From Tengunoibacter tsumagoiensis (GTDB taxonomy: Bacteria; Chloroflexota; Ktedonobacteria; Ktedonobacterales; Ktedonobacteraceae): a stretch of DNA of 64,000 nucleotides. The notes under the pieces are model-generated. The model saw only the letters and a list, made by a program, of their open reading frames with translations. It was not told the origin of the DNA and ran no database searches. Position 1 is the first letter of the stretch; the number at the start of each line of letters is the position of its first letter. Where the stretch lies: positions 62,001-126,000 of the forward strand of contig NZ_BIFR01000002.1 of assembly GCF_003967535.1 (NCBI RefSeq). Reading direction: 5' to 3'. Made by a program: the position numbers and the translations under genes. This document shows, piece after piece, positions 20,926 to 38,140 of this stretch.

Positions 20926-21825
20926 ATGGATGAGAATACGTTGGCACCACAGCCTCGGTATATGGCTCATGGCCAGCGGGGCTGCCTTTCAACTTTGTTG
21001 CTTGGTATTGTCCTGTTTGTGGCAACAACCATTGTGTTGATTGCTACGGGAAATCCCAACATGTTTCCAACGGTGATTATGATTGGCAATTTCCTCGTTC
21101 CGATTGTATTTGTAGTGTTCCTCTATGATCATCAGCATCTGAGTTCGTTGAGTCCGGAGACAATTGGGCGTAGCTTTGCGGTTGGTGGTATTCTGGGTGT
21201 ACTTGGGGCCTCAATCCTTGAAACCATTTTGTTGCCGCGACCCTCCTCTCCAGATCAGGGTCTGACTCTATCAACGGCCTTATTAGTGGGATTGATTGAA
21301 GAAGGTTGTAAGATCCTGGCCGTCATCGTTCTGGCCAGGAAAATGCAGCCGCGATCACAGATTGATGGACTGTTACTGGGAGCAGCCGTAGGGATGGGCT
21401 TTGCGGCTTTAGAGAGCACTGGCTATGCCTTTACTGCGTTTCTTGCGAGCGAGGGGCATCTAACGGCCTCGCTTTTTTCAACGATTCTGCGTGGACTACT
21501 GGCCCCCTTTGGTCATGGAACCTGGACGGCTATTATCGCGGCGGTCCTGTTTCGTCAGAGTAAGGGGGGACACTTTCGCATCAACCTGCCAGTTATTCTC
21601 ACCTATCTGTTTGTCTCGCTGTTGCATGGCCTCTGGGATGGTTTTCCACTCTTCCTCTTTCCATTTACCATCGACATCTCTGGCGTGGATATCCCGCTTG
21701 CAACTGTCATCATTGGCATATTCGGCGTCCTCGTCCTGACTGCACTGTATCAGCGTGCTATTCGACAGCGACAGCGCATCAACACGGAACAACTACCAAC
21801 GCTGACTCCTTTGCCCGATATGTAG
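20926..21825 (+). CDS. PrsW-like intramembrane metalloprotease
   Basis: A 299-residue protein with about eight membrane helices. The catalytic motifs of the PrsW/CAAX-like superfamily are present: EEGCK (Glu-Glu pair on a helix), GMGFAALEST, HGTWTA, and HGLWDG. PrsW cleaves an anti-sigma factor in Bacillus to release the sigma factor; here the substrate is unknown and no sigma/anti-sigma pair is nearby. AGGGGAGATGTGCA precedes the ATG at 20926. The C-terminal helices are followed by a short cytosolic tail. Confidence 0.88.
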   Translation: MDENTLAPQPRYMAHGQRGCLSTLLLGIVLFVATTIVLIATGNPNMFPTVIMIGNFLVPIVFVVFLYDHQHLSSLSPETIGRSFAVGGILGVLGASILETILLPRPSSPDQGLTLSTALLVGLIEEGCKILAVIVLARKMQPRSQIDGLLLGAAVGMGFAALESTGYAFTAFLASEGHLTASLFSTILRGLLAPFGHGTWTAIIAAVLFRQSKGGHFRINLPVILTYLFVSLLHGLWDGFPLFLFPFTIDISGVDIPLATVIIGIFGVLVLTALYQRAIRQRQRINTEQLPTLTPLPDM

Positions 21826-21869: not shown

Positions 21870-22189
21870 GGAGCTCCAAGATGTCTGCCTCACCATAGCA
21901 TCATTGCCCATTTCCCGTTGTCCAATTGAGCAATGGAGGGGCTCACCGAGCGGAGTGGGAGCAGTGGAAAGAGACAAGCGACTTTCCCTACTTAACATAG
22001 ATCTATATGCGAAATGGAGCAAGATACGACAATACAAGTAGGGAAGGTAGCTTGTCTCCTTCCTAAATTTCCCGTTCCGCCATGCCAGCCCCTCCATAAC
22101 ATCATTGCCCGTTTTCCGTTGTCCCATTGTCCATGGAGGGGTTCACCGAGTGGAGTGGGAGCAGAGGAAAGAGACAAGCGACTTTCCCT
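21870..22189 (-). repeat. long palindromic repeats, cluster 1 (two copies, inverted relative to the other clusters)
   Basis: Unit A (about 21870-21993) and unit B (22038-22189, its last 4 bases now at 23884) are long imperfect palindromes with ends of the type AAGTAGGGAAGG...CTTGTCTC and GACAAGCG...CTTTCCCTACTT, and an inner pair of arms around CCCCTCCAT/ATGGAGGGG. They are joined by a conserved linker (21994-22037). Read on the minus strand they match the units at 37.6 and 42.1 kb, including the linker core TTGCTC.ATTTC.CATATA. Confidence 0.8.
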
Positions 22190-22224
22190 TGTATCTTAAC
22201 AACAAGGAAGGTTTCTTGTATGCT

Positions 22225-22425
22225 AGAAAGAAGAAGAAAGATCAGTTCAGCACTCAGTGAAGACGAACTTTCCCTTGTTGGCTTTGACCACGTTCAGTAG
22301 ATCGTTCTCCTAAGTGCTGTTTCCAGACGTCGAGTTCCAACGGTATCAAGGAGCCTTCCCCCACCAGTTGCCCACTGCAAGGAAGAGCCCGCATACAAGG
22401 GTGACACCGAGTCGGGACAACTGAT
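22225..22425 (+). ncRNA. candidate IS110 bridge RNA with readable guide loops
   Basis: All four guides expected of an IS110 bridge RNA can be read. ACTTTCCCT at 22267-22275 equals the left target (22181-22189). GTTCAGTAG at 22292-22300 pairs, with one mismatch, with the right target CTACTTAAC. ACGGTATC at 22340-22347 equals the right end of the element (23875-23882). ATACAAG at 22393-22399 is the reverse complement of CTTGTAT at the left junction (22188-22194). The target-loop guides sit inside a stem CAGCACT (22248-22254) with AGTGCTG (22313-22319). The order (left target, right target, left donor, right donor guides) is that of characterised bridge RNAs. Exact 5' and 3' ends are not visible. 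Confidence 0.75.
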
Positions 22426-22464
22426 CTTGTGAACAGAGTATATCAGAAACAAGGAGGTCTTCCT

Positions 22465-23604
22465 ATGGCGTATCCTCTGCAATCCACCCTGCTTCCTCTT
22501 GGTGCGGATGTGTCCAAGCTCACCATCGATCTGCATCTGGGGACCGAAAAAGGCCGTCGTTTCCACAAGCGCATCGCCAATACCCTCTCCGGTTTTCAAG
22601 AAGCGCAGCAGTGGCTTGTTGAGCAAGGGGCTCTTCAGGTTCACGTCTGTGCGGAAGCCACCGGAACCTACTCTGATGCCTTTGCGACCTTTATGGATGC
22701 TCAAGGCCATCGCATGAGCGTGGTCGCTCCACATAAAATGCACGCATTTCGCAAAAGTGAAGGACAACTGGCCAAAACGGACCCGTTGGATGCCCGCCTT
22801 TTAGCGTTGTATGCCGCTCAAAAACAGCCCCCTGCCTGGCATCCTCTTGATGATCTTCATATCCAATTGAAACTGAGCCTGGAGCGGCTCGATCAATTGG
22901 AAGGCCTCAAGCAACAGGAGGTGAATCGCCTGGAAAATCAGCGGCTTTCGCCTGCCCTCCGCGAGCAGATTCAAGCGCTGATCGCCTTCGTCGAGCACCA
23001 AAAAGAACAGGCGAATGCTCATATGCGCGATCTGTTGAAGCAGATCGCGCAGCAGCAACGCCAGACATCTGAGGAGGCGTTGTCTGCATCCGAGCGGACT
23101 ACGACCACCCCACCCCCCGCAAAAGAGGAGCCCCTGGTACTGGGGCACAAGAAAGCGGTGGGCCTCGCGTGTGTCGATCATTTTCAGGAGATCAAAGGGA
23201 TCGGACTGTTGACCGCCGTGCGCATGTACAGCCTGTTGAAGACGATGCAAGAGGTTCATTCAGCGGCTCAGCTGGCTGCCTACATTGGGGTGGTGCCTCA
23301 TGCTGCCACCTCGGGCACCTCTGTCAGAGGCAAAGCTCAACGGCGAGGAGGCAATGCCAAAGCGCGCAGCTGGCTCTACATGTCGGCGCTCAATAGCAAA
23401 CGATTTGATCCTGATATGCGGGAGTGGGCGCAGCAACTGCAAGCTCGAGGGTTGTGTCAGAAACAGATTCTGGTCGCAGTCATGCACAAACTGGTGCGTA
23501 TTCTCTTTGCGCTCTACACGACCGGCCAGCGCTATGATGCGAGAAAAGCCTGGCCGACCCATGGGAGCAAAGATGCGTCATCGGTGATGTCACAGGTGGC
23601 CTAA
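22465..23604 (+). CDS. IS110 family transposase (bridge-RNA-guided recombinase)
   Basis: About 379 residues. The N-terminal RuvC-like DEDD domain shows LGADVSKLTIDLHL, CAEATGTYSDA, and KTDPLDARLLALYA. A helical coiled-coil region (about 130-240) follows, and the C-terminal Transposase_20 domain has EIKGIGLLTAVRM, AAYIGVVPHAATSGTS and GNAKARSWLYMSALNS, with the serine expected to attack DNA in this last part. Full length, with no frameshift, so it may be active. AAGGAGG is 8 bases before the ATG at 22465; the frame upstream to 22429 is not needed. Confidence 0.92.
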   Translation: MAYPLQSTLLPLGADVSKLTIDLHLGTEKGRRFHKRIANTLSGFQEAQQWLVEQGALQVHVCAEATGTYSDAFATFMDAQGHRMSVVAPHKMHAFRKSEGQLAKTDPLDARLLALYAAQKQPPAWHPLDDLHIQLKLSLERLDQLEGLKQQEVNRLENQRLSPALREQIQALIAFVEHQKEQANAHMRDLLKQIAQQQRQTSEEALSASERTTTTPPPAKEEPLVLGHKKAVGLACVDHFQEIKGIGLLTAVRMYSLLKTMQEVHSAAQLAAYIGVVPHAATSGTSVRGKAQRRGGNAKARSWLYMSALNSKRFDPDMREWAQQLQARGLCQKQILVAVMHKLVRILFALYTTGQRYDARKAWPTHGSKDASSVMSQVA

Positions 23605-23642
23605 CAGCTCGATCCAGGCACATCGTTCCTCGTATTGCTCAA

Positions 23643-23671
23643 CAAGAGCGTCGTGGTTTTCGACGCTCTTG
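23643..23671 (+). terminator. hairpin after the IS110 transposase
   Basis: CAAGAGCGTCG and CGACGCTCTTG form a perfect 11-bp stem with a 7-base loop 38 bp after the stop codon. Likely transcription terminator of the transposase mRNA, although the following T-run is short. Confidence 0.6.
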
Positions 23672-23695
23672 CACATCGGTGTGGGCTCCAGCAGG

Positions 23696-23833
23696 CCTGT
23701 TTTTCTTTCGTTTCTGAGGCAGGCAATGGTCAACCGAAGCCGCAGCTGGTGTCAAGGGAAAACGCAGTGGCCTTGACGCCAGTTGCGGGCTTCGGTTAGG
23801 CTTTCAGCCTGTCAGAAACGAAGGAAAAACAGG
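23696..23833. repeat. nested long inverted repeat at the IS110 3' end
   Basis: Outer arms (CCTGTTTTTCTTTCG... at 23696 and ...CGAAGGAAAAACAGG ending 23833) are about 22 bp long with one mismatch. Inner arms 23732-23757 and 23771-23797 (AACCGAAGCC.../...GGCTTCGGTT) are about 26 bp with few mismatches. Together they can fold as a 138-base hairpin with an internal bulge. This is unusually strong structure for a transposon end. Confidence 0.7.
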
Positions 23834-23883
23834 TCAACAAGAAAAATTGGTCACGTTTCCTCTTGACAATCAAGACGGTATCT

Positions 23884-23952
23884 ACTTAACATAGATCTAT
23901 ATGCGAAATGGAGCAAGATACGACAATACAAGTAGGGAAGGTAGCTTGTCTC
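23884..23952 (-). repeat. palindromic repeat fragment between the two insertion sequences
   Basis: The last four bases of unit B (ACTT), the linker, and the first arm of unit C (23930 on). It is 69 bp of host repeat left between the IS110 and the IS4. It ends with GTAGCTTGTCTC (23941-23952), the left target duplication of the IS4. Confidence 0.8.
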
Positions 23953-25465
23953 ACTGACTCCAACTAATTCAAGAATCTTGTTTCTTTTTGCGGGGAAAAT
24001 TGCCAGCAGCCTTATGCGCATAGCGCGGTTTGCGTTGCCGTGGAAGATCGTCGGGAGGATCACACAGCTCTTCCACGGGAACGTGAAAGAGCTCACGGCG
24101 GCTGCGCGTGCTCGAACGAAGGATCTTCATCGCGCTACCCTGGGACAGCACAACGTCAATGGGATCGTATCCCTCTGCAAGCCATCGTGGAACATGACGA
24201 ACCAGGAGTTCGAGGGACACATCAAACACATCAACATCCGCTTTCTCGGCAATATGCATCTGATACGCATGGAAAAATTGTGCCAGGAGGGCCGTCGCCC
24301 AGATTTGGAGCTGGATCACCTCCCATTTCGCGCTCCAGATCCATTTGAGTCCTAAATAATCTTTGAGCAGACGAAAGGCGCATTCGATGTCCCAACGGCG
24401 ATCGTAGAGCCTGGCAATCTGTGCCACAGAGAGCTGACGAGCATCAGTGACATTGGTGAGGTACTCATACTGTTGGCCTCGATACCAATAGCGCACCAAT
24501 CGAGCGGTATATCTGGCTTGATCTGCACGAAAGGCTCCGACCTGAACGAGGGCATCGACGATGCCATTGCGATCGTAGATCACGTGCAAAACCTTGTAAC
24601 TCATGTTTTTCTTGACCCGTCCAATCCACCAGAGGCGGCGGGTCGTCAATTCATCAAACCACTCAAAGCCATTGTAGCCCCGATCGAAGAGGATGAGGGC
24701 TCCTGCGGGAATGCCACTGATGAGATCAAAAGCGGCACGTCGGCAATCGGCTACGGTATTGAACACATCGATTCGTTTCCATTGTTGCCGACGGACATCG
24801 AAGAGCGCCCCAATGCGGCCAGCCAGCAAGCGTCGATCGCCGATGGGAACCTGTCGCAACTCCGCAATCCAGCGTTTTCTGGGATCCAGCGTACTTTCAT
24901 CGAGGGCAAAGACATCATTGGCAAACGGAGCCAGGCTGAGATCGGCGCGAAGGTTCATCCGCTCACACAGCCATGCGCTCATATGCTCGAAAAACGCGCG
25001 AAAATGCGCATGCGTGTTCTGCGCCAACCGTTTGTAGATCGCCTGGTCGGAGACGCGGACCGGGGGCAAAGTTCCCACGCCGGAAAAGCTGAGGAGTCGC
25101 CAGAGGTCCAATTGGGAATTCCAGCCGCGTAGCATGCAGATCAAGATACCAAGGAAGAGAAAGGAGGAAGAAAGGCGTTGTGGTCGACCACGCCTCTTTC
25201 CCGGCACCACCAGATCCCGGCTCGCCTCGATCAACAAGGTTTCCAGGGTTTGGGTTGGCTCTGACGACTTGACAAGCTCACGACCAGATGGTGTATCATA
25301 CAACATAAGAAGGATGTCCTTTCGAGTTGAGATTTTTATTCGGATTGTCCTTCTTTTTTTCCTTTTTGGCAACCGCTCTAGGACCCATGGGGGGCTCCAG
25401 AGGACCCATGATCAAGTGCGAAGGATCGGCTTCCCAGGCCTCTCCGTGAATTAGTTGGAGTCACT
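23953..25465 (-). mobile_element. IS4 family insertion sequence
   Basis: The ends are ACTGACTCCAACTAATTCA (23953) and, reverse complement, AGTGACTCCAACTAATTCA (ending 25465), a 19-bp inverted repeat with one mismatch. GTAGCTTGTCTC is repeated directly on both sides (23941-23952 and 25466-25477), a 12-bp target duplication, in the size range of the IS4 family. The element is about 1.5 kb with one transposase gene on the minus strand. It split unit C of the palindromic repeat, whose remainder continues at 25478. Confidence 0.9.
23969..25372 (-). CDS. IS4 family DDE transposase
   Basis: A 467-residue protein. The catalytic core shows DESTLD (first Asp), FDRGYNGFEWFDEL (second Asp in a DRGY context), and the IS4 YREK signature Y-x2-R-x3-E-x6-K in YDRRWDIECAFRLLK. 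The N- and C-terminal tails are rich in Arg and Lys, as expected for DNA binding. The gene is uninterrupted and the element has both ends and a clean target duplication, so it is probably a recent arrival. Confidence 0.93.
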   Translation of the reverse strand: MPKRKKRRTIRIKISTRKDILLMLYDTPSGRELVKSSEPTQTLETLLIEASRDLVVPGKRRGRPQRLSSSFLFLGILICMLRGWNSQLDLWRLLSFSGVGTLPPVRVSDQAIYKRLAQNTHAHFRAFFEHMSAWLCERMNLRADLSLAPFANDVFALDESTLDPRKRWIAELRQVPIGDRRLLAGRIGALFDVRRQQWKRIDVFNTVADCRRAAFDLISGIPAGALILFDRGYNGFEWFDELTTRRLWWIGRVKKNMSYKVLHVIYDRNGIVDALVQVGAFRADQARYTARLVRYWYRGQQYEYLTNVTDARQLSVAQIARLYDRRWDIECAFRLLKDYLGLKWIWSAKWEVIQLQIWATALLAQFFHAYQMHIAEKADVDVFDVSLELLVRHVPRWLAEGYDPIDVVLSQGSAMKILRSSTRSRRELFHVPVEELCDPPDDLPRQRKPRYAHKAAGNFPRKKKQDS

Positions 25466-25477
25466 GTAGCTTGTCTC

Positions 25478-25571
25478 CTTCCACATCTCGACATTCCACC
25501 ATGCCAGCCCCACCATAGCATCATTGCCCATTTTCCATGTTCCAATTGAGCAATGGAGGAGTCCAATAGGG
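25478..25571 (-). repeat. remainder of palindromic repeat unit C
   Basis: Directly after the IS4 target duplication the host repeat resumes (CTTCCACATCTCGACATTCC..., then CACCATAGCATCATTGCCC) and fades near 25571, 26 bp from the end of gltX. It is the right-hand part of the unit whose left arm is at 23930-23952. Confidence 0.75.
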
Positions 25572-37599: not shown

Positions 37600-38140
37600 G
37601 GTTAGGAGATGACTGCCTGGCTCGTTCCTCATGTTAGCTCTTGCCACCCCGTGATGTGAGCTCCTCCATGGCTCAATTGGAAATGGAAATGGGCAAAGGA
37701 TGCTATGGAGGGGCTGGCATGGCGGAATGTCGAGATGTGGAAGGAGACAAGCAACCTTCCCTACTTGTCTTATTGTATAATGCTCTATTTTGTATAAAAA
37801 AACTGTAAAGTAGGGAAAGTCGCTTGTCTCTTTCCTCTGCTGCCACTCCGCTCTGTTCACCCCTCCATGACAGAATTGGAAACGGAAAACAGGAAAGGAA
37901 GCGATGGTGGGGCTGGCATGACAGAACGGGACAATTGTGGAAGGAGACAAGCAACCTTCCCTACTTGTCTTGTTATTTATCACATGAAAATAGATATTAT
38001 GCACCACAAAGTAGGGAAAGTCGCTTGTCTCTTTCCTATATTGCCATCCCGTAATGTGAGCCCTCCATAGCTCAATGGGACAGAGCGCTATGGAGGGCTG
38101 CCATGGCAGAGCTTCGCGATTAGGAAGGCGAATAATCTGG
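37600..38140 (+). repeat. long palindromic repeats, cluster 2 (three copies)
   Basis: Three units in tandem: a first with a degenerate left part ending CCTACTT at 37766, a clear one at 37808-37966, and a third from 38009 to about 38140 with a degenerate right part. The central unit has 28-bp ends that pair with about three mismatches (AAGTAGGGAAAGTCGCTTGT and ACAAGCAACCTTCCCTACTT). The linkers carry the conserved GCTCTATTT. They sit between the tubby-like gene and the sialidase-like gene. 37344-37600 shows nothing else. Confidence 0.85.

Follow-up and report, generated by a model that had tools for sequence, protein, structure and literature searches.

The window analysed here, a 64,000-nucleotide stretch of DNA from Tengunoibacter tsumagoiensis, contains an element of the IS110 group lodged inside a palindromic host repeat. 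The question raised by this locus is whether the choice of target and donor DNA can be read from a bridge RNA encoded in the element itself, as the initial annotation had proposed. In our view it very probably can, and we hold with high confidence that the element moves by bridge-RNA-guided recombination. Sequences, guide matches, covariation with relatives, insertion sites and catalytic residues were obtained directly in this analysis.

The element and its unoccupied site

The stretch 22188–23883 is an IS110-group insertion sequence with a CT core, inside the host repeat. The features that delimit it are as follows.

21933–22060, forward strand: intact host palindromic repeat holding the target
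21981–21992, forward strand: unoccupied target ACTTTCC-CT-ACT, in this intact neighbour repeat
22181–22189, forward strand: left target ACTTTCC and core CT
22188–23883, forward strand: IS110-group element, with CT cores at 22188–22189 and 23882–23883, delimited against the empty repeat and two identical copies
22188–22197, forward strand: left end, with core CT, right donor TGTAT (22190–22194) and −10 box TATCTT (22192–22197)
23863–23881, forward strand: right end, with −35 box TTGACA (23863–23868) and left donor ACGGTAT (23875–23881), kept in relatives
23882–23890, forward strand: core CT and right target ACTTAAC

The intact neighbour repeat had been taken to represent the unoccupied target, and it does so: at 21981 it reads ACTTTCC-CT-ACTTAAC, from which it follows that the core is CT and that the element consists of 22190–23881 plus one CT. 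The donor junction of the element is ACGGTAT-CT-TGTAT. Of the two ends, the left is long, at 275 nt, and contains every guide, while the right is short, which is the layout of the IS110 group.

The recombinase

22465–23604, forward strand: IS110 recombinase, 379 amino acids

The recombinase has the PF01548 (DEDD) and PF02371 domains, passes the cut-off of the NCBI model 'IS110 family RNA-guided transposase' and matches the solved structures of IS621 and ISCro4. Its reading frame is uninterrupted and no active-site residue is missing: Asp15, Glu64, Asp106, Asp109 and Ser283 align with Asp11, Glu60, Asp102, Asp105 and Ser241 of IS621, which are essential in that enzyme (PMC11208158). A scan of public genomes with the single protein found nothing; in searches of the class and of plasmids the closest of the long matches had 42% identity, and one 80-residue fragment had 50%. 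The initial annotation had called this an uncharacterised bridge recombinase, which is correct for the protein but not for the mechanism, published in 2024.

The guide segments

22267–22275, forward strand: left target guide (LTG) ACTTTCCCT, 9/9 to the left target plus core
22292–22300, forward strand: right target guide (RTG) GTTCAGTAG, 8/9 to the right target; AGTAG pairs in all three insertions
22301–22302, forward strand: target-loop handshake guide AU, pairing donor positions 6–7 (AT), read against the IS621 scheme (PMC11208158)
22340–22347, forward strand: left donor guide (LDG) ACGGTATC, 8/8, equal to the right end at 23875
22393–22399, forward strand: right donor guide (RDG) ATACAAG, contiguous, 7/7, reverse complement of CTTGTAT at 22188–22194
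22400–22401, forward strand: donor-loop handshake guide GG, pairing target positions 6–7 (CC), read against the IS621 scheme (PMC11208158)

The four guides had been correctly named in identity, strand and order, and every string lies where it was placed: ACTTTCCCT is found in the left target at 22181 and again in the LTG, the RTG fits the right target with a single mismatch, ACGGTATC recurs at the right end, and ATACAAG is complementary to the left junction. The LTG and LDG read as the top strand and the RTG and RDG as its reverse complement, as expected; these strands, the LTG–RTG–LDG–RDG order and the two internal loops agree with the IS621 scheme (PMC11208160, PMC11208158).

Four short words chosen as the best in a 275-nt left end might match by chance or hindsight. 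Taken singly the guides are indeed modest, with p values of about 0.003, 0.04, 0.01 and 0.05, and there is another RDG-like word at 22445; the RDG by itself is weak evidence. Against this, the best ordered four-guide match scores 33/36, compared with a null mean of 24.0 (s.d. 1.2, maximum 29), and was reached by none of 5,000 dinucleotide shuffles. We note that the look-alike at 22445 enters this score; when the proposed RDG is used instead, the sum is 32, again higher than in every shuffle. Further evidence comes from the handshake guides. In the IS621 structure two more dinucleotides, beside the RTG and RDG, pair with the partner DNA at strand exchange (PMC11208158). Both of their counterparts in this element fit in full and, because they had played no part in the choice of the guides, they constitute an independent confirmation. 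The full specificity, comprising a target of 11–12 bp, the donor, the core and the handshake guides, is readable as a prediction from the sequence. The specificity of a so far unstudied bridge recombinase can in this way be written down and tested directly.

Copies in the genome and the host repeat

The 7.7 Mb genome holds three copies of the element, 100% identical over 1,692 bases. Each sits in a different copy of the one palindromic host repeat and each at ACTTTCC-CT-ACT, so that both of the others bear out the expectation of further copies at ACTTTCCCT-CT-like sites. Identical copies at three sites indicate that this very sequence moved recently, which supports activity of the element indirectly.

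The bases past the core differ among the three insertions (ACTTAAC, ACTTTAC and ACTTAAA), and on the right-target side only CTACT is paired in all of them. The mismatch of the RTG falls on the sixth base counting from the core C. The 12-mer ACTTTCCCTACT occurs at 125 free sites genome-wide, compared with three for a reversed control; it is followed by T in all 35 contexts inspected, and the 16-mer with a perfect match to the guides is absent from the genome. Taken together, the pairing of CTACT only, the absence of the perfect 16-mer and the invariable T suggest that the part of the guide in use probably does not include the mismatch.

We considered whether the element avoids the other arm of the repeat and discarded the idea: with 125 left-arm and 101 right-arm sites, three insertions out of three in one arm are unremarkable (about 0.17). 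With 125 exact natural targets and three occupied ones, the host lends itself to studying, in a natural setting, why bridge recombinases are drawn to repeats.

The repeat has about 190 matches genome-wide. Its predicted structure is a long hairpin with an energy of about −84 to −104 kcal/mol for every 210 nt, and its copies follow one another roughly every 200 bp, two to six to a cluster. Further pieces in the window are 22133–22189 with 23882–23952, 25466–25548 and, on the minus strand, a region near 37742–38068. To the right of the IS110 element, in the same repeat, a DDE_Tnp_1 (IS4-type) transposase gene occupies 23941–25477; it is flanked by GTAGCTTGTCTC at 23941–23952 and 25466–25477, which resembles a 12-bp target duplication. 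A gene for a PrsW-family intramembrane protease (20926–21825) lies immediately upstream of the repeat cluster.

Predicted promoter and structure of the bridge RNA

22204–22430, forward strand: predicted bridge RNA of about 225 nt, its ends placed from the promoter and helix P1
22238–22247, forward strand: 5′ arm of helix P1, AAGATCAGTT, which encloses both loops
22248–22254, forward strand: 5′ arm of the target-loop stem, CAGCACT
22313–22319, forward strand: 3′ arm of the target-loop stem, AGTGCTG
22323–22332, forward strand: 5′ arm of the donor-loop stem, CCAGACGTCG
22408–22415, forward strand: 3′ arm of the donor-loop stem, CGAGTCGG
22419–22428, forward strand: 3′ arm of helix P1, AACTGATCTT

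When the two ends are joined they read TTGACA-17 nt-TATCTT, a predicted σ70-like promoter whose spacer contains the core. This arrangement is kept in relatives, as described for the IS110 family. An Rfam scan gave no match at threshold.

The initial annotation had named a fold with the four guides in stems as a sign against its reading. Formally this is what is seen, as the guides are paired shut in the minimum-energy fold computed without constraints, a prediction that is uninformative in itself (z = −0.56), but the outcome does not discriminate: the established IS621 RNA also folds with its guides shut (−66.8 kcal/mol free versus −57.8 kcal/mol with the guides open), and because it behaves alike, closed guides are not evidence against the assignment. 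The IS621 RNA sequence used here agrees at ≥99% identity with 1,194 E. coli records.

With the guides held open, the element and its relatives share a plan in which a hairpin at the 5′ end is accompanied by a stem-borne target loop and a donor loop. The proposed target-loop stem forms under these conditions; it is CAGCACT/AGTGCTG in the element and is built from other complementary sequences in the relatives. Since the guides were open by instruction, the shared plan is shown to be possible, and its real support is that the letters of the stem change and yet stay complementary.

Helix P1 (10 bp) was supported by shuffle tests in the element (0/2,000) and, among relatives, in L040 (0.003) and in L158 and L159 (0.03–0.04); L095 was borderline, and the same test gave no support in L127, L137 or IS621. 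On these results we do not take P1 to be universal. The RDG is contiguous in the element, whereas nine aligned relatives have a gap of 1–2 nt (AT-nn-ACAAG). We tentatively suggest, with rather more doubt than conviction, that the bridge RNA may be a structural variant in which a three-way junction with P1 around both loops is combined with a gap-free right donor guide. If functional, such an RNA would have a geometry unlike that of IS621 and possibly stricter donor pairing; P1 and the gap-free RDG are leads on the range of bridge RNA geometry.

The spacing of the RDG, unlike that of IS621 and of the nine relatives, could also be taken as a damaging deletion in a decayed bridge RNA, the relic of an element that no longer moves. 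The three identical copies at three sites, the open frame and the intact active site all speak against decay, and we consider this reading improbable.

Comparison with known systems and proposed mechanism

The element resembles IS621 (PDB entry 8WT6 and others) in its two-domain DEDD/serine recombinase and CT core. The RNA located in a long left end, the junction promoter, the LTG–RTG–LDG–RDG order and the handshake AU are further likenesses (PMC11208160), as are the donor, ACAGTAT-CT-TGTAT in IS621 and ACGGTAT-CT-TGTAT here, and a target in a palindromic repeat (PMC11208160). The two differ in their targets, in the length of the RNA (177 nt in IS621, about 225 nt in the element), in the stretch between the two recombinase domains, which is about 35 residues longer in the element, and in P1, which of these two only the element has around both loops. 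The right donor guide of IS621 pairs discontiguously (PMC11208160), with a 2-nt gap, whereas that of the element is gap-free. The pairing of nine RNA with seven DNA nucleotides is thus not found here; it is a sub-feature of IS621 and does not define the family.

Among solved structures the best sequence match is the ISCro4 recombinase (PDB entry 9T56; E = 1.2e-35), in a comparison made between the proteins, whose sequences are divergent. The IS1111 group shares the recombinase family and is RNA-guided (PMC11208160), but its RNA lies in a long right end, whereas the element has its guides in the left end of 275 nt. With its fully readable IS621-type bridge RNA, the element is a new IS110-group member, and so belongs to a known family.

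By homology we infer the circle, its transcription, the RNA–protein complex and the activity of the element. In the proposed mechanism the recombinase would excise a circle at the CT cores, joining the right-end TTGACA to the left-end TATCTT to create a promoter for transcription of the left end, whose product would be a bridge RNA about 225 nt long. This RNA would form a hairpin at its 5′ end as well as two loops. Of these, the target loop would read ACTTTCC-CT-ACT in the host repeat, the LTG pairing with the bottom strand and the RTG with the top strand, and the donor loop would read the element's own ACGGTAT-CT-TGTAT junction. The handshake dinucleotides AU and GG would then base-pair with the strands being exchanged, leaving the element between two CT cores.

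Relatives and covariation

A sibling element in a related genome (L095) sits at GGGTTCA-CT-CCAAAGG, and its RNA carries GGGTTCACT, CTTTGGAG, ACGGTATCT and ACAAG in that order (0/5,000 shuffles), an independent replication of the ordered match. This copy (reverse strand, index 2317–2767) is a 450-bp internally deleted element that keeps both ends and the complete bridge RNA and has lost most of the recombinase; it is possibly a non-autonomous element moved in trans. A further left end (L040) adjoins AAAAGCC-CT and carries AAAAGCCC. In a sister clade the donor is ATACCGTAT-CT-CGTAT and the guides are ACCGTAT and ACGAG, so that both donor halves have changed along with their guides; for the sister-clade target, GGTGACAG-CT-TACGT, the matching guides are GGTGACAGC and ACGTAAG. 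By inspection, the handshake base for target position 7 also tracks the target: it is U in L095, where the target has A, and C in L087 and L090, where the target has G, whereas the others read have G opposite C.

Public genomes, searched for the right end TTGACAnnCAAGACGGTATCT, contain it in at least 113 stretches, which come from many phyla, foremost Proteobacteria and Chloroflexi. The complete elements among them yielded more target/loop pairs; a search of viral contigs gave no match. Twelve RNAs, those of the focal element and of eleven related elements with other targets, were tested against all twelve targets. The RNAs matched their own targets with a total of 138, compared with 113.7 (s.d. 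3.8) for permuted pairs, and none of 200,000 permutations scored as high; in this test L103, L159 and L163 fit their targets only moderately. Chance or hindsight is in effect refuted by these comparative tests, and we give it next to no credence.

It might also be argued that the protein itself recognises the palindromic repeat as a hairpin and that the RNA matches merely record past sites. The target does lie in a strong hairpin repeat, home of all three copies. Relatives that share the donor nevertheless insert at unrelated targets, and the loop of each relative matches its own target; the architecture of the target loop is conserved while the guide letters change; and guide swaps in IS621 redirect insertion (PMC11208160). 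Recognition by the protein is accordingly very improbable, and RNA-guided targeting is the reading that we retain.

The near-identical sister elements L094 and L100 keep the left target of their clade, GGTGACAG, but have a changed LTG, GGTACGAGC, that does not fit it; the guide may have changed after insertion, or the RNA of another copy may have directed the insertion. TTGACAnnCAAGACGGTATCT also occurs at sites where the search upstream found no recombinase, in L111, L116, L128, L141, L145 and L165 (Marichromatium) and in L123 and L124 (Phycisphaerales), and such sites may be solo ends, relics or small passenger elements. The Marichromatium occurrences adjoin a CAGCCTCC/GGAGGCTGG palindrome, and in L108 (4553–4633) TTGACAnnCAAGACGGTATCT forms an inverted pair separated by about 60 bp.
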